Positions 44,611-55,226 of a stretch of 64,000 bases of DNA are shown piece by piece. The stretch is from NCBI RefSeq assembly GCF_014199615.1, contig NZ_JACHOB010000006.1, positions 62,001 to 126,000 on the forward strand, written 5' to 3'. Positions within the stretch are counted from its first letter, which is position 1; each line of letters opens with the position of its first letter. A program made the position numbers and the translations under genes. The notes under the pieces were generated by a model. It did not search any database. It was given only the letters and a program-made list of their open reading frames with translations, and had not been told where the DNA came from. The stretch comes from Parvularcula dongshanensis (GTDB taxonomy: Bacteria > Pseudomonadota > Alphaproteobacteria > Caulobacterales > Parvularculaceae).

Positions 44611-46152
44611 TCAGTCCGCTCCCCAATCGTAAGTTAGTGTCTCGCGAAACCGCTCCGCATCCGCGCGTATGACCTTCCGCTCCCCCTCGTCCTTCCGGTC
44701 CAGGTTCCGATAAGGCATCTTCATCCGCGCGTTCTGCCGCAGTTGCCCCTCGTTCCGCATCAGGAAGTCCCAGTCGAGATAGTTGAACGGGCACGCCCCC
44801 TTCCCGGTTTTCTTGCCGACGTCGTAGGCACAGTGCCCGCAGTAGTCGGACATCCGGTTGATGTAGGCGCCTGACGCCGCGTAGGGCTTCGACCCCATCA
44901 CCCCGCCATCGGCGAAGATCGCCATGCCGTGCGTGTTGGGCAGCTGCACCCACTCATAGGCGTCTGCGTAGACGACGAGGTACCATTCGTTGATGTGGTC
45001 GGGGTGCACGCCCAGCAGCATGGCGAGCTGGCCCGTGATCATCAGGCGCTGGATGTGGTGCGCGTAAGCGTTGTCGCGCGTGTTCCGCACGGCCTCCGCC
45101 ACGCAGTGCATGTCCGTCTCGGCTGTCCAGTAGAAGTCCGGCAGCGGGGCCTCGGCGCCGAGGGCATTGCGCTTCTTGTACTCCGGCATCTTCAGCCAGT
45201 AGATGCCGCGCACGTACTCGCGCCAGCCGATGATCTGGCGGATGAAGCCCTCCGCGCAGTTGAGCGGCGCGTGGCCCTCGCGGTACGCCTCTTCGGCCGC
45301 CTCGCACACCTCCATGGGCGTCAAGAGGCCTGCGTTCATGTACACGGACAGAAGCGAGTGGTTCAGGAAGTCCTGCCCCGTCGCCATCGCGTCCTGATAG
45401 TGCCCGAAGCGCGGCAGGCTCTCCTCGACGAAGCGGCCGAGCTGCAACAGCGCGTCGTCGCGCATGTGGCCGAAGGCGTAGTGATCGAGCGTCCCGAAGT
45501 GGCCGCCGAACCGGTCCTCGACCAGCGCCATTACCTCGCGCGTCAGCGGGTCGTCCCGCTTTAGCGGCCGCTCGGGCGGCTCATAGCCGTCGGGAAGGCG
45601 CTTTCTATTGTCCTGATCGAAGTTCCACTGCCCGCCCTCGGGCTTCCCGTCGCGCATCAGGAGGCCCGTCTTCTTTCGCATCTCGCGATAGAAGAACTCC
45701 ATCCGCAGCGCCTTGCGCCCTTCGGCCCAGGCGCGGAACTCCGGCAGGGAACAGACGAAGCGGTCGTCGTCGCGGATCGTCACCGGCCGGTTCAGCCGGC
45801 GCTGCCACCCCTCCATGTCGTCGGCGAGCCGCACCTCGCCGCAAGCGGTCGTGACCAGCTCGTCGACGCTCTCGTCTTCGAACGCCCGGCGGACCTCGCC
45901 GAACAGGCTGCCGGTGTTCGCGGGGTCGTCCAGCGTCACGTAGCGGACGGTGAAGCCCTCGGCCCGAAGGCTCTCCGCGAAGCTGCGCATGGCACAGAAC
46001 AAGAAGACGATCTTCTGCTTGTGGTGGCGAACATAGGTCGCCTCGTCCCAGACCTCCGCCATCAGGACGACGTCCCGCGCGGGGTCGGCGCCGCGCAAGG
46101 CGGGGATGTCGCGGGTCAGCTGGTCACCGAGGACGAGGCGGAGCGCGGGCAT
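44611..46152 (-). CDS. phrB: Fe-S bacterial photolyase/cryptochrome, PhrB-like (6-4) photolyase
   Basis: A 513-residue protein of the iron-sulfur bacterial cryptochrome/photolyase group. It has the photolyase-like N-terminal domain (LRLVLGDQLT..MAEVWDEATYVRHHKQKIVFLF), a helical FAD domain, and four cysteines at 350, 438, 441 and 454 (DMHC, YCGHC, GACPF), the positions that hold the [4Fe-4S] cluster in Agrobacterium PhrB. PhrB repairs (6-4) pyrimidine photoproducts in light using FAD and a lumazine antenna, which links conceptually to the ribH product. AAAGGGAGG precedes the ATG. It is not in an operon. Confidence 0.92.
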   Translation of the reverse strand: MPALRLVLGDQLTRDIPALRGADPARDVVLMAEVWDEATYVRHHKQKIVFLFCAMRSFAESLRAEGFTVRYVTLDDPANTGSLFGEVRRAFEDESVDELVTTACGEVRLADDMEGWQRRLNRPVTIRDDDRFVCSLPEFRAWAEGRKALRMEFFYREMRKKTGLLMRDGKPEGGQWNFDQDNRKRLPDGYEPPERPLKRDDPLTREVMALVEDRFGGHFGTLDHYAFGHMRDDALLQLGRFVEESLPRFGHYQDAMATGQDFLNHSLLSVYMNAGLLTPMEVCEAAEEAYREGHAPLNCAEGFIRQIIGWREYVRGIYWLKMPEYKKRNALGAEAPLPDFYWTAETDMHCVAEAVRNTRDNAYAHHIQRLMITGQLAMLLGVHPDHINEWYLVVYADAYEWVQLPNTHGMAIFADGGVMGSKPYAASGAYINRMSDYCGHCAYDVGKKTGKGACPFNYLDWDFLMRNEGQLRQNARMKMPYRNLDRKDEGERKVIRADAERFRETLTYDWGAD

Positions 46153-46542: not shown

Positions 46543-49500
46543 TCAGTGAACCAGCTCGACCCCGCAGACGCCGTCGATCGTCTTGATCGCGCCCTTCACC
46601 GCCACCGTCGCAGGCACGGTGTCGGGCAGCGCTAGCTCCACCTCGCAGCCCGCGTCGCGCAGCGACAGGAGAAGCCGCGCGGCGCCGCGCCCGCCCTGCT
46701 GACTGACGACCGCGAGGCGGCGTTTCAGCGCCGGAAGCGCGAGGGGCGAGTCGAGCGTGATGCGGAGCGCCGCCGTGCTCGACGCCGTCTCGCCGTCGAG
46801 GCGCCGCGCCCCCTCCCCCGTCAGGCGGACCGTGCCGTCGCGGTCCTCCGCCGTCACGGAGAAGCAGAGGAGCGCGCCCGGGACGAGAAGGTCGCGCTGG
46901 GCGTCCAGCACCTCTGAGAACACCGTCAGCTCGAAGTCGCCGGAGCGGTCCGAGCAGGTGATCCAGGCGAACGGCTTGCCCGACTTCGACCGGCGCGGCG
47001 TGACCTCGCGGACGATGCCCGCCATCTGGCAGGAGATCTTGGTGCCCTGCGCCGCCTGCATCACTTCCGCCTGCGGACGGACGCCTTTGCTGCCCAGGAC
47101 CTCGTCGTAGTCGTCGAGCGGGTGGCCGGAGAAGTAGAACCCGATCGAGCCGAGCTCATGATCGAGCTTCTCGAGCGGCACCCAAGGCTCAGCCCTCGGC
47201 AGCGGCGGCCGCGCCAGCGCGGGGCCGGCGTCGCCGAATAGGCCGCCCTGCGCGGACGCCTTCTCCTCGGCGTGGCTTGCGGAGTAGCGGCACAGGAACT
47301 CCGCCGCGGCGAAGGCGACGGCGCGGTCCGGGCAGAGCGCGTCGAACGCGCCTGCGCGCGCCAACTGCTCGAAGCCGCGCTTGCCGATTCGGCGGCCGTC
47401 GATGCGCTCGGCGAAGTCGTGGAGGTCGCGGAAAGGCCCGCCCCGGCGCCGCTCCTCCTCGACGTGCCGCATCGCCTCGGTCCCGACGTTCTTCAGCGCG
47501 CCGAGGGCGTAGTGGATCGCGCCTTCCTTCACGGTGAAGTCCATGCCCGAGGCATTGACGCAAGGCGGATGCACCGTCACGCCGCACCGCTTGGCCTCAG
47601 ACAGAAAACCGCCGAGCTTGTCCGTGAGCCCCATGTCGAGCGACATGGACGCGGCCAGGAACTCGGCCGTGTGGTTCGCCTTGAGCCAGGCGGTCTGATA
47701 GCTGATCCAGGCGTAGGCGGCGGCGTGCGACTTGTTGAAGCCGTAGCCTGCGAACTTCGCCACCAGCTCGAAGATCGAGCGCGCCTTGTCGGGGTCGACG
47801 CCGTTGTCCTTCGCGCCATTGACGAAGCGGACCCGTTGCAGGTCCATCTCCTCCTTCTTCTTCTTACCCATGGCGCGGCGAAGAAGGTCGGCCTCACCGA
47901 GGGAGTAGCCGGACAGGACCTGGGCGATCTGCATCACCTGTTCCTGGTAGATGATGACGCCGTGCGTCTCTTTCAGGATCGGCTCGAGCGTCGGGTACAG
48001 ATAGTCCGGCGCCTCGCGCCCCGCCTTGCGCTCGATATAGGTCGGGATGTTGTCCATCGGACCCGGCCGGTAGAGCGAGACGAGGGCGATGATGTCTTCG
48101 AGGCAGTCGGCGTTCAGGCCCTTGAGCGCCGCGCGCATGCCCGAACTTTCGAGCTGGAACACCCCGACCGCGTCGCCCTTGCCGAGCATGTCGTAGGTCG
48201 CCTCGCACCCCATCGGGATCGCCGCCGGGTCGAAGTCACCGCCGATAAGGTCGGCCGCCCGGCGGATGACCGTGAGCGTCTTGAGGCCGAGGAAGTCGAA
48301 CTTCACGAGGCCCGCAGGCTCGACCCACTTCATGTTGAACTGGGTCGCCGGCATGTCCGAACGCGGATCGAGGTAGAGCGGCACTAGCTCTTTGAGCGGA
48401 CGGTCGCCGATCACGACGCCCGCCGCGTGGGTCGAGGCGTGGCGGTAGAGCCCTTCGAGCTTCAGCGCGGTGGAGAGGAGGTGCGCGACCTGCTCGTCTC
48501 CATCCCGCTCCTGCCGCAGGCGCGGTTCGCCCGCGATGGCTTGGGCGAGCGTCACCGGGTTCGCGGGGTTGTTCGGCACCATCTTGCACAGACGGTCGAC
48601 CTGGCCGAACGGCATCTGAAGGACGCGCCCTACGTCGCGCAGGACGGCGCGTGCCTGCAGCTTACCGAAGGTGATGATCTGCGCGACGCGGTCGTGGCCG
48701 TACTTGCGCTGGACGTAGGCGATGACCTCGTCGCGCCGGTCCTGGCAGAAGTCGACGTCGAAGTCCGGCATCGAGATCCGCTCGGGGTTCAAGAACCGCT
48801 CGAAGAGGAGCCCGAAGCGCAAGGGGTCGAGGTCCGTGATCGTCAGCGCGTAGGCGACGAGGCTGCCCGCGCCCGAGCCCCTGCCGGGTCCTACGGGAAT
48901 GCTCTGCGACTTCGCCCATTGGATGAAGTCCGCGACGATGAGGAAGTAGCCGGGGAAGCCCATCTTCGCGATGATGGACAGCTCCAGCTCGAGGCGCTTC
49001 CAGTAGTCCTCTTCGGGCCCTGCGAGTTCGATCGCGGCGAGGCGCTTCTTGAGACCTTCCTTGGCCTGACGTTCGAGCTCCTTCGTCTCCCCCTCGAGGT
49101 CGCCGGCGAAGCTGGGCAGGATCGGCGGATGCGTGCGCGGCCGCATGGCGCAACGCTGCGCGACCTCGAGCGTCGCCTCGCACGCCTCGGGCAGGTCCGC
49201 GAAGAGCGCCAACATCTCGGCTTCGGACTTGAAGTAGTGGTCCGCGCTGACCCGGCGCCGGTCGTCCTGGCTGATGTAGGCGCCGTTCGCGATGCAGAGG
49301 AGCGCGTCGTGCGCTTCGTGGTCGGAGGGCTTCGCGTAGTAGACGTTGTTCGTCGCGACGATCGGAAGGTCGCGGCCGTAGGCAAGGTGCAGGAGGCGCT
49401 GCTCGCACGGATACCGCCCTGCCCTGTCCGTCGTCTCTGCGGAGGGGTGCCGCTGCACCTCGACGTAGAGCCGGCGCGGGAACGCCTCTTCTAGGCGGCT

Positions 49501-50025
49501 CGCCAACGCCTCGGCCTCGGCGTCGCGACCCACGCAGTAGAGCCGGTCGAGCGGTCCGTTGGGCCCGCCGGTCAGGCACAGGAGTCCCGCCGTCTCGTCC
49601 AAGAGGTCGGCGAGGTGAATGCAGGTCTGCCCCTCGACCGCCGGGTTCAGATAGCCCTGAGAGCCGAGCGCCATAAGTCGGCGGTACCCCGCCTCGTCCT
49701 GCGCGAGGAGCACCACGCGCGGCAGGCCGTCATGCCCGCCCGCGTCGAGCCCCAGATCCTCGGGGCAGACCGCGACCTCCATGCCGGTGATCGGCTGGAC
49801 GCCCGCCCCCGACAGCACCTCCGACGCTTCGAGCGCGCCGAACAGGTTGTTGGTGTCCGTGACCGCCAGCGCAGGCATCTTCGCCTGGACGCAAACGTCG
49901 CGCAGCGCCCCGATGGGCATGGCCCCCTCGGCCAAGGAGAAGGCCGAGTGGCAGTGGAGGTGGATGAAGCTGGCGGGCATGACCCAAGGGGAGAGCGATT
50001 CGGCCCGCCCGGCTTGGGTGAACAT
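46543..50025 (-). CDS. dnaE: DNA polymerase III alpha subunit
   Basis: Replicative polymerase subunit of 1160 residues. N-terminal PHP domain opens FIHLHCHSAFSLAEGAMPIG (about 20), the catalytic aspartates lie in SMPDFDVDFCQDRR (about 420) and a further Asp in the palm, with GPGRGSGAGSLVAYAL (about 395), then helix-hairpin-helix and an OB domain with MAGIVREVTPRR (about 1000). I use ATG 50025, which has GAGG 11 bases upstream; ATG 49980 would give the more usual family N-terminus. The SOS-linked peptide gene lies directly upstream on the same strand. Confidence 0.96.
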   Translation of the reverse strand: MFTQAGRAESLSPWVMPASFIHLHCHSAFSLAEGAMPIGALRDVCVQAKMPALAVTDTNNLFGALEASEVLSGAGVQPITGMEVAVCPEDLGLDAGGHDGLPRVVLLAQDEAGYRRLMALGSQGYLNPAVEGQTCIHLADLLDETAGLLCLTGGPNGPLDRLYCVGRDAEAEALASRLEEAFPRRLYVEVQRHPSAETTDRAGRYPCEQRLLHLAYGRDLPIVATNNVYYAKPSDHEAHDALLCIANGAYISQDDRRRVSADHYFKSEAEMLALFADLPEACEATLEVAQRCAMRPRTHPPILPSFAGDLEGETKELERQAKEGLKKRLAAIELAGPEEDYWKRLELELSIIAKMGFPGYFLIVADFIQWAKSQSIPVGPGRGSGAGSLVAYALTITDLDPLRFGLLFERFLNPERISMPDFDVDFCQDRRDEVIAYVQRKYGHDRVAQIITFGKLQARAVLRDVGRVLQMPFGQVDRLCKMVPNNPANPVTLAQAIAGEPRLRQERDGDEQVAHLLSTALKLEGLYRHASTHAAGVVIGDRPLKELVPLYLDPRSDMPATQFNMKWVEPAGLVKFDFLGLKTLTVIRRAADLIGGDFDPAAIPMGCEATYDMLGKGDAVGVFQLESSGMRAALKGLNADCLEDIIALVSLYRPGPMDNIPTYIERKAGREAPDYLYPTLEPILKETHGVIIYQEQVMQIAQVLSGYSLGEADLLRRAMGKKKKEEMDLQRVRFVNGAKDNGVDPDKARSIFELVAKFAGYGFNKSHAAAYAWISYQTAWLKANHTAEFLAASMSLDMGLTDKLGGFLSEAKRCGVTVHPPCVNASGMDFTVKEGAIHYALGALKNVGTEAMRHVEEERRRGGPFRDLHDFAERIDGRRIGKRGFEQLARAGAFDALCPDRAVAFAAAEFLCRYSASHAEEKASAQGGLFGDAGPALARPPLPRAEPWVPLEKLDHELGSIGFYFSGHPLDDYDEVLGSKGVRPQAEVMQAAQGTKISCQMAGIVREVTPRRSKSGKPFAWITCSDRSGDFELTVFSEVLDAQRDLLVPGALLCFSVTAEDRDGTVRLTGEGARRLDGETASSTAALRITLDSPLALPALKRRLAVVSQQGGRGAARLLLSLRDAGCEVELALPDTVPATVAVKGAIKTIDGVCGVELVH

Positions 50026-50083: not shown

Positions 50084-50173
50084 TCAGCCGAACGGTCCGC
50101 CCAGCACCGTCGCCGCCGCCACGAGGCCGATCTGCACCATCATGCCCAGGCCGTCCTTGATCGTGTTCGCCAT
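50084..50173 (-). CDS. SOS-controlled 29-residue hydrophobic membrane peptide (SidA-like candidate)
   Basis: A 29-residue ORF too short for usual gene calling. It begins MANTIKDGLGMM and its remaining 20 residues are mainly Val, Ala, Leu, Gly and Ile, ending VLGGPFG, so a single membrane-inserting or amphipathic helix is likely. GAGGG lies nine bases before this ATG; a second in-frame ATG at 50182 (32 residues) abuts that site and is less likely. A LexA-type box (50192-50206) overlaps the predicted promoter. Caulobacter SidA, an SOS-induced 29-residue cell-division inhibitor in the inner membrane, is the closest known type by size and control; homology cannot be judged here. Confidence 0.65.
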   Translation of the reverse strand: MANTIKDGLGMMVQIGLVAAATVLGGPFG

Positions 50174-50191
50174 GGTCGTCATCCCTCACTT

Positions 50192-50206
50192 GTTCCGCGA
50201 ATGTTC
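50192..50206 (-). promoter_or_regulatory. LexA (SOS) box before the 29-residue peptide gene
   Basis: Plus strand GTTC-CGCGAAT-GTTC, which is GAAC-ATTCGCG-GAAC on the gene's strand: an exact match to the alphaproteobacterial direct-repeat LexA site GTTC-N7-GTTC. It covers the region between the predicted -10 and the transcription start. Confidence 0.82.
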
Positions 50207-50232
50207 GTATTCGTGGTTTGTTCTAGCCGCAA
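50204..50232 (-). promoter_or_regulatory. Predicted promoter of the SOS peptide gene
   Basis: Minus strand TTGCGG (50232-50227), 17 bases, TACGAA (50209-50204). The -10 shares bases with the LexA box, so LexA would block RNA polymerase. The predicted start near 50197 gives a leader of about 24 bases. Confidence 0.5.
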
Positions 50233-50237
50233 GGAAT

Positions 50238-50252
50238 GTTTGCCTGATGTTC
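50238..50252 (-). promoter_or_regulatory. Second, near-consensus LexA-like box upstream
   Basis: Plus strand GTTT-GCCTGAT-GTTC differs from GTTC-N7-GTTC at one base. It lies just upstream of the predicted -35 of the peptide gene, 46 bases from the consensus box. It could be an auxiliary LexA site or chance. Confidence 0.4.
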
Positions 50253-50500: not shown

Positions 50501-50830
50501 GTGAGCGACAACAGAAACAGCGAGGGCGAGCCGGATGCGCCGAGCGGCCTTCGCATAGATCGCGAAGAGACCGAATCGAAGGGCCGCTACGACGCGACGC
50601 TGGACGGTTCGGGCGGGGAGATGACCTACTCCCGGGCCGGCGAGAAGACGATCATCATCGATCATACGCGGGTCGACGAGGCCCTACGAGGACGAGGCGT
50701 CGGCCAGGCGCTCGTCCGGCGCGGCGTCGAGGATGCGCGCGCGGAGGGACGCAGCATCATCCCCCTCTGCCCCTACGCGAAGGCGCAGATCGAACGCCAT
50801 GAGGCGTGGCGGGACGTTCTGAAGAAGTAG
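50501..50830 (+). CDS. Small GNAT-family N-acetyltransferase (YjdJ-like)
   Basis: A 109-residue minimal GNAT domain with the acetyl-CoA loop RGRGVGQALVRRGVEDAR (about 65) and IIPLCPYAKAQIERH near the end, typical of the COG2388 group. Substrate is unknown. GTG 50501 begins VSDNRNSEGE; the open frame continues upstream to 49781 but that part crosses dnaE's 5' end and the SOS region and is not used. The aldo-keto reductase follows 68 bases downstream. Confidence 0.83.
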   Translation: MSDNRNSEGEPDAPSGLRIDREETESKGRYDATLDGSGGEMTYSRAGEKTIIIDHTRVDEALRGRGVGQALVRRGVEDARAEGRSIIPLCPYAKAQIERHEAWRDVLKK

Positions 50831-52865: not shown

Positions 52866-52880
52866 GTTCCCACGACGTTC
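52866..52880 (+). promoter_or_regulatory. uvrD: LexA (SOS) box before uvrD
   Basis: GTTC-CCACGAC-GTTC is an exact GTTC-N7-GTTC alphaproteobacterial LexA site, 21 bases before the uvrD ATG. uvrD is a standard SOS regulon member, which also supports reading the same motif upstream of dnaE as functional. Confidence 0.82.
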
Positions 52881-52901: not shown

Positions 52902-55226
52902 ATGCCGTCCCTCTCCGAACGCGCCGCCGCCCGTCCGTCCCCCGCCCTCGTCGGGGGCGAGCCCCACTATCTTGAGGGGCTGAACCCGCCCCAGCGAGAG
53001 GCCGTGCTGACGACGGAAGGGCCCGTCCTGATGCTTGCCGGCGCAGGCACGGGGAAGACGCGAGCGCTCACGACGCGCCTCGCGCACATCCTGTCGACCG
53101 GCCTCGCCCGCCCCTGGGAGGTCCTCTGCGTCACCTTCACCAACAAGGCCGCGCGCGAGATGCGCGAGCGGATCGGCGCGCTGGTCGGTGATTCGGTCGA
53201 GGGAATGCGCTGGCTCGGCACCTTCCACTCGATCGGTGCGCAGATCCTGCGTCGCCACGCCGAGGTCGTGGACCTGAAGTCGAGCTTCACGATCATCGAT
53301 ACCGACGATCAGGTCCGTCTCTGCAAGCAGGTGATCGAGGCGGCGGGCCTCGACGAGAAGCGCTGGACGGGGCGCGGGCTCGCGGGGCTGATCGACGACT
53401 GGAAGAACCGCGGCCTGACGCCCGACGAGGTGCCGGGTCGCGAGGCGCACGAGTTCGGCGAGGGCAAGGCCATCGCGCTCTACCGCGCCTACCAGGCCCG
53501 CCTCGTCGCCCTGAATGCCGCCGACTTCGGCGACCTCCTCGTGCACAACCTGACGATCTTCCGCACGAAGCCCGACATCCTCGCCGAGTACCACCGCCGA
53601 TTCCGCTACCTGATGGTCGACGAGTATCAGGATACCAACGTCGCCCAGTACCTCTGGCTGCGCCTCCTCGCGCGGGACGACGAGGGCAAGACGGGCGGCA
53701 ACGTCTGCGTGGTCGGCGACGACGATCAGTCGATCTATGGCTGGCGCGGCGCGGAGGTCGAGAACATCCTTCGGTTCGAGAAGGACTTCCCCGGCGCCAA
53801 GGTCATCCGTCTGGAGCAGAACTACCGCTCGACGCCATCGATCCTCGCTGCCGCCTCCGCCGTCATCGCCAACAACGAGGACCGGCTCGGCAAGACGCTG
53901 TTCACGGACGTTCCCGAAGGCTCGAAGGTAATCCTGCGCGGTGTATGGGACGGCGACGAGGAAGCGCGCGTCATCTGCGACGACATCGAGTCCGAGCAGA
54001 TCAAGGGACGCTCGCTCTCCGACATGGCCGTCCTCGTCCGCGCGTCCTTCCAGATGCGCAGCTTCGAGGAGCGCTTCAACACGGCCGGCATACCGTACCA
54101 AGTCGTCGGCGGCCCCCGCTTCTACGAGCGCGAGGAGACCCGCGACGCCCTCGCCTACCTCCGCCTCGTGCGGAACCCCGACGACGACCTCAGCTTCGCG
54201 CGCATCGTCAACAAGCCGCGCCGCGGCTTCGGCGACAAGGCGATCCAGATGCTGAACGTCGCATCGCGGATGAACGGCACGAGCCTGACGGGCGCTGCCC
54301 GCTTCCTGCTCGAGACGTCCGAGCTCAAGGGCAAGGCGAAGTCCGCCATGCGCGAGTTCCTGGACAGCCTCGACCGATGGGCCGACGCGGCCAAGGACAA
54401 GCGCCCCGGCGACCTCGCCGAACTCGTCCTCGAAGAGTCGGGCTATACGGACTTCTGGAAGGCGTCGAAGAACGCGCAGGCCCCCGGCAAGCTCGAGAAC
54501 CTGAAAGAGCTCGTCAACGCCGCCTCCGAGTTCGACACGCTCGAAGGCTACCTCGACCACGTCGCCCTCGTCTCCGAGCGCACCTCCGACGAGGAGAGCG
54601 GTCAGGTCTGGCTGATGACGCTCCACGCCGCGAAGGGGCTCGAGTTCCCGGTCGTCTTCCTGCCCGGTTGGGAGGAGGAGCTGTTCCCGTCGGGACGAAG
54701 CCTCGACGAGAAGGGCAAGGACGGCCTCGAAGAGGAGCGCCGCCTCGCTTACGTCGGCATCACGCGCGCGCGGGAGAGCTGCCGCATCAGCTTCGCGGCG
54801 AACCGCCAGGTCTACGGCCGCTGGCAGTCCGCCCTCCCCTCCCGCTTCGTCGACGAGCTGCCAGAGGAACACGTCGACGTCGCCTCCGAGCCCGGCCTCT
54901 ACGGCGTCGCGGCCAAAAGCCTGCCCTCGCACAGCCAGTTCCACGACCTCGTGGTCGAGCGGACCGAGAGCGGCGGCGGCTACGACACGCCGGGCTGGCG
55001 CCGGGCGCAGCGCGCGGGCCGCAGCGGGAAGGCACCGATCGAAGGATCGGCGACCCTCATCGCATCCTCCGCCCCCGGCCAGTCGGACTTCGAGAGGGAC
55101 CAACGCGTCTTCCACCAGAAGTTCGGCACTGGTACCGTTCGCCGCGTCGACGGCAACAAGCTCGAGGTCGAGTTCGATCACGCAGGCCTCAAGAAGGTGA
55201 TCGGAAGCTTCCTGAGCGCCGCTTGA
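52902..55226 (+). CDS. uvrD: DNA helicase II (UvrD/PcrA)
   Basis: 3'-5' SF1 helicase for nucleotide-excision and mismatch repair. The 774-residue product carries motif I LAGAGTGKTRAL (about 45), motif Ia VTFTNKAAREMRER, motif II VDEYQDTN (about 240), motif III VGDDDQSIYGWRGAEV (about 270), motif IV LEQNYRS, motif V TLHAAKGLEFPVVFLPGWEE (about 570) and motif VI VGITRARESC, then a C-terminal Tudor-like domain (FHQKFGTGTVRRVDGNKLEVEF). A LexA box lies just upstream. Confidence 0.97.
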   Translation: MPSLSERAAARPSPALVGGEPHYLEGLNPPQREAVLTTEGPVLMLAGAGTGKTRALTTRLAHILSTGLARPWEVLCVTFTNKAAREMRERIGALVGDSVEGMRWLGTFHSIGAQILRRHAEVVDLKSSFTIIDTDDQVRLCKQVIEAAGLDEKRWTGRGLAGLIDDWKNRGLTPDEVPGREAHEFGEGKAIALYRAYQARLVALNAADFGDLLVHNLTIFRTKPDILAEYHRRFRYLMVDEYQDTNVAQYLWLRLLARDDEGKTGGNVCVVGDDDQSIYGWRGAEVENILRFEKDFPGAKVIRLEQNYRSTPSILAAASAVIANNEDRLGKTLFTDVPEGSKVILRGVWDGDEEARVICDDIESEQIKGRSLSDMAVLVRASFQMRSFEERFNTAGIPYQVVGGPRFYEREETRDALAYLRLVRNPDDDLSFARIVNKPRRGFGDKAIQMLNVASRMNGTSLTGAARFLLETSELKGKAKSAMREFLDSLDRWADAAKDKRPGDLAELVLEESGYTDFWKASKNAQAPGKLENLKELVNAASEFDTLEGYLDHVALVSERTSDEESGQVWLMTLHAAKGLEFPVVFLPGWEEELFPSGRSLDEKGKDGLEEERRLAYVGITRARESCRISFAANRQVYGRWQSALPSRFVDELPEEHVDVASEPGLYGVAAKSLPSHSQFHDLVVERTESGGGYDTPGWRRAQRAGRSGKAPIEGSATLIASSAPGQSDFERDQRVFHQKFGTGTVRRVDGNKLEVEFDHAGLKKVIGSFLSAA

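Follow-up and report, generated by a model that had tools for sequence, protein, structure and literature searches.

The gene for the replicative DNA polymerase III alpha subunit, dnaE1 (46543..50025, minus strand; NF004226, 1378 bits against a cut-off of 1002), is the syntenic anchor of the locus described here, which lies in a 64,000-nucleotide stretch of the Parvularcula dongshanensis genome ("the window" in what follows). On its 5' side, 58 nt away and on the same strand, is an open reading frame of 29 codons (50084..50173), running from an ATG at 50173-50171 to a TGA at 50086-50084 and specifying a predicted SidA-like membrane peptide, MANTIKDGLGMMVQIGLVAAATVLGGPFG, with 29 residues and a single hydrophobic helix (top 15-residue hydropathy 1.93). 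The sequence GAGGG (50183..50187, minus strand), 9 nt 5' of the ATG at 50173, is its likely ribosome-binding site. Another in-frame ATG is located three codons further 5', at 50182, but GAGGG nearly abuts it, and 50173 is therefore the likelier start. Both the ORF and its ribosome site had been picked out in the first-pass annotation, and both are borne out; its further proposal, that routine gene calling would overlook such a gene, is plausible. Pfam and PHROGs searches gave no convincing match. The divergent neighbour on the opposite flank is a gene for a GNAT acetyltransferase, at 50501 (PF14542). (Two further remarks on this neighbourhood: the start of DnaE itself could be either MFTQAGRA... 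at 50025 or MPASFIHLH... at 49980; and the 513-aa ORF 3' of dnaE, 44611-46152 on the minus strand, looks photolyase/cryptochrome-like by eye, with no NCBIfam match at 1e-3.)

Three LexA-type boxes are arrayed upstream of the ORF, all on the minus strand: an exact box, GAACATTCGCGGAAC (50192..50206), with an exact equivalent at nearly all loci of the window's family; a box with one mismatch, GAACAAACCACGAAT (50209..50223), an addition to the first-pass annotation and the one that most relatives match, with a GAAC-N7-GAAT at comparable spacing; and a further one-mismatch box, GAACATCAGGCAAAC (50238..50252), whose counterpart in G002, the nearest relative (locus L040), is exact. The exact box and the outermost one had been noted before, and both are indeed present. 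The motif, GTTC-N7-GTTC, is the LexA motif published for Caulobacter (PMC12700426). A single LexA is encoded in the genome, and exact boxes are found 5' of its own lexA (GAACAACCCTAGAAC) and recA (GAACAGCCGGAGAAC), as well as 5' of radA-like and imuB-type polymerase ORFs (both named by eye). The window holds 4 exact boxes where 2.1 are expected, and the exact box alone is compatible with chance; the case therefore rests on conservation: that box and ORF occur together at the orthologous position in almost the whole family is beyond chance. With the same exact box at lexA and recA, and with the box kept alongside the ORF in relatives, the LexA control that had been proposed for the peptide gene is, as judged from sequence, well supported. 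The accompanying proposal, that the exact box covers a predicted -10/+1 region, fares less evenly: a promoter scan with an E. coli-type model found no promoter at the peptide gene and gives it no support, while the layout common to the relatives, read by eye, does favor it (TTGnCA, approximately 16 nt containing the near-box, and an AATAg or TATAga -10 element, with the exact box at the -10).

Other exact boxes point to other genes. One in the window, GTTCCCACGACGTTC (52866-52880, plus strand), lies 22 nt before a UvrD/PcrA-type helicase ORF (52902-55226, plus strand), which may belong to the SOS regulon here. Another, in the same genome (L225; G000:C1:518562), lies 22 nt before a 76-codon ORF that begins MELPMTTTEHPKTEAPSNAQKDPDNWTTG and is possibly a further SOS gene.

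With the DnaE N-terminus as anchor, the sequence 5' of dnaE was read across the window's family, in 35 genomes. An equivalent one-helix peptide is present at all 35 loci (25-33 aa by the likeliest starts), made up of a short polar start, a basic-acidic pair (e.g., KD or RD) and about 20 mostly hydrophobic residues. The exact box lies 28-50 nt before the start at nearly all of these loci, and in most cases a second near-box lies beyond it. Four loci depart from this: L064 and L065 have one-mismatch boxes only, none was found at L151, and at L068 the contig ends too early. Direct protein searches of relatives with MANTIKDGLGMMVQIGLVAAATVLGGPFG return mostly noise beyond G002; a profile made from the other family members puts the window ORF at the head (E 2e-5) of the 1254 segments that six-frame translation of the window yields. 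Position, frame and box are conserved together, rather than the frame being lost while the box varies, and that conservation rejects a chance ORF. Codon statistics speak for purifying selection in three groups (pN/pS 0.28, 0.31 and 0.18) and not clearly so in a fourth (0.76), nor between the window and G002, where pN is 0.26 and pS 0.32, on only about 23 changes. (A separate observation on the anchor: the DnaE N-terminus is 52-58% identical to that of most members of its own genus, which does not exceed its identity to the family's other genera, and only G002 is close, at 79%.)

The same kind of peptide occupies the same slot 5' of dnaE in three other families of the order: at 26 of 26 loci in f3, 20 of 20 in f5 and 4 loci in f4. 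It is absent at dnaE in the f2 loci and in most f4 loci that could be read, and a profile search elsewhere in the f2 and f4/g22 genomes yielded no convincing relocated copy. (One f2 genome, G113, does have a very hydrophobic 38-aa ORF, MLKLRLRDLLSLNALAGLSAVILCVVLVTDPAVMALLG, away from dnaE at L342, with a weak SidA-like profile match, E 0.022, and no nearby LexA box.) In a Caulobacter-like f3 genus with genomes of 4-5 Mb, the peptide is 29 aa long and matches, at 2.2e-20, the NCBI SidA model NF033228, a model that also marks the named control, Caulobacter vibrioides. The gene for this peptide has dnaE on one side and, on the other, a divergent gene for an inosine-uridine nucleoside hydrolase. 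The position of sidA in Caulobacter was reconstructed from three papers together with sequence: sidA is CCNA_02004 (PMC11034885), CCNA_02005 is an IU nucleoside hydrolase (PMC3667746) and dnaE is CC1926 (PMC1839093), locus tags that fit the dnaE-sidA-nucleoside hydrolase order seen in f3. Because the NF033228 match and the dnaE/nucleoside hydrolase arrangement both agree with sidA, f3 is probably the Caulobacter family. The first-pass annotation had brought up SidA as a known parallel; with sidA itself lying 5' of dnaE, the relation probably goes beyond analogy to orthology by position.

Against the curated SidA model, NF033228, the window peptide gives no match, and a profile built on f3 alone does not find the window ORF. 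A profile built on f5, however, looks in both directions: of the roughly 22 segments at each locus, it places the correct ORF at the top for 8 of 8 loci of the window's genus, 24 of 27 other loci of the family and 24 of 26 f3 loci, with best E values of 0.013, 6e-4 and 0.0016, respectively, and no decoy better than 0.6. This supports f5 as a bridging family, through whose profile the window peptide would be tied transitively to SidA; the comparison with SidA proteins that had been suggested earlier fails against the curated model and finds support through the intermediate. The case for orthology is accordingly built from four things: position, LexA control, size and profile similarity of a transitive kind. 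Three observations count against it: the missing NF033228 match, the failure of the f3 profile, and a pN close to pS in the comparison with G002.

We put at roughly 0.75 the probability that the 29-codon ORF is orthologous to Caulobacter sidA, though divergent from it, with a product that stalls division at the FtsW/FtsI/FtsN complex. The mechanism comes from Caulobacter SidA, a demonstrated division inhibitor (PMC4211646), and its role is assigned to the window peptide on the strength of the proposed orthology. Loss of lexA leads to filamentation that is sidA-dependent (PMC12700426), and in a 2026 paper SidA is placed by co-folding models, with low confidence, on TM7 of FtsW (PMC13396833); the window's genome has two FtsW/RodA-type genes. 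LexA seated on the box array over the promoter would keep the peptide gene off; DNA damage would activate RecA, LexA would cleave itself and the peptide would be made; it would insert as one inner-membrane helix, N-terminus probably inside, and act on FtsW/FtsI/FtsN, stabilizing an inactive state and holding off septal wall synthesis until repair is done.

The size, hydrophobicity and LexA boxes that suit a division inhibitor would suit equally well an SOS-induced membrane peptide with another action, e.g., a TisB-like one that takes the lipid bilayer as its target and, by depolarization, brings on dormancy. The first-pass annotation had offered this as an alternative; it is without specific support, and since the dnaE-adjacent position and the profile bridge tie the peptide to SidA, a division inhibitor, we regard it as unlikely. 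Proximity to dnaE might be read quite differently, with the ORF as a leader whose translation regulates dnaE, or simply as the opening gene of a dnaE transcript under LexA control, the peptide itself being of minor account. The gene is well placed for that, on the same strand and, counting from stop codon to dnaE, at a distance whose median in relatives (58 nt) equals the window's own, but the spacing is variable (25-254 nt). A terminator, an attenuator or unusual RNA structure was sought in the peptide-dnaE interval and found no support there; purifying selection acts on the amino-acid sequence in three of the four groups; and the Caulobacter counterpart has been demonstrated to inhibit division (PMC4211646). 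A regulatory leader is in our estimation decidedly improbable.

Might the ORF be a decayed sidA, orthologous by descent, its function lost in the window's lineage? A pN close to pS relative to G002 would be in keeping with decay, but the ORF retains its start, stop, ribosome site and exact box, all of them intact, and it matches the family profile; we give such decay very little credence.

Survey beyond the order enlarges the picture. When a profile of 44 peptides was run through 387 alphaproteobacterial genomes, the best further peptides again had dnaE downstream and an exact LexA box in front of them (families f7, f13, f62, f150 and f154); a match in f20 also has the exact box, on the margin of a contig that leaves the downstream gene out of view. 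With its own cut-off applied, the SidA model picks out one of the same 387 genomes. In a separate reading of 68 loci 5' of dnaE, from 56 families, the exact box is present at 14 loci (10 families), and a membrane micro-ORF comes just after it in all 14; among loci without the box, any such micro-ORF is found in 4 of 54 (Fisher p 2e-11, a value that is indicative only, the loci not being fully independent and the hydrophobicity cut-off having been set after seeing examples). The LexA-boxed one-helix ORFs 5' of dnaE in f38 (L279, L292, L296) and f109 (L331) have near-zero SidA-like profile scores and would be either very diverged homologues or unrelated peptides in the same slot; slot and regulation are alike. 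The exact box 5' of dnaE is found at none of 79 usable named loci, which are mostly Rhodobacteraceae. On balance we lean toward regarding the combination of LexA box, one-helix micro-peptide and dnaE as an SOS checkpoint locus that is ancestral in the Alphaproteobacteria. Many families remote from Caulobacter would have retained it and others lost it, and drift in the peptides would have gone so far that, outside the Caulobacter family, little is left for the curated SidA model to recognize.

The open papers that were found describe SidA only in Caulobacter, and no report of it elsewhere was found in the open-access literature. A fixed site, 5' of dnaE and behind a LexA box, now provides candidates for damage-induced inhibitors of division in about a dozen additional families of this survey, and with them a natural sequence series for working out which SidA residues meet FtsW. 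Position and regulation here reveal genes that a curated sequence model misses. Why has a checkpoint gene stayed beside the gene for the replicative polymerase?

TisB is a short, hydrophobic, membrane-active peptide, SOS-controlled and also controlled by antisense RNA, and DinQ is likewise membrane-active and antisense-RNA-controlled. The likeness of TisB and of DinQ (also a short hydrophobic peptide under SOS control; PMC3567139) to the window peptide is one of size class and SOS control, without a shown relation in position or sequence. YneA, SosA and ChiZ are SOS-linked small membrane division inhibitors that act at a late step, with FtsW as a shown or modelled target (PMC13396833), but they are larger, come from other phyla and in some cases have a LysM domain: the parallel is functional only. 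DidA of Caulobacter crescentus is a small, damage-induced, one-helix division inhibitor that acts on the same complex (PMC4211646); unlike the window peptide it has 71 residues, and it is SOS-independent, being induced by DriD. SidA of the same species (CCNA_02004; NF033228) is the closest counterpart. Both peptides are 29 residues long and have a single hydrophobic helix, with a basic-acidic pair close to the N-terminus; both genes lie directly 5' of dnaE, on its strand, and have a promoter (predicted, in the present case) covered by LexA boxes. The differences are that the window peptide is too diverged for the curated model and that its divergent neighbour is a GNAT acetyltransferase instead of a nucleoside hydrolase. 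SidA, then, is already known; what is new is the breadth of LexA-boxed, dnaE-adjacent peptides that the curated SidA model misses.
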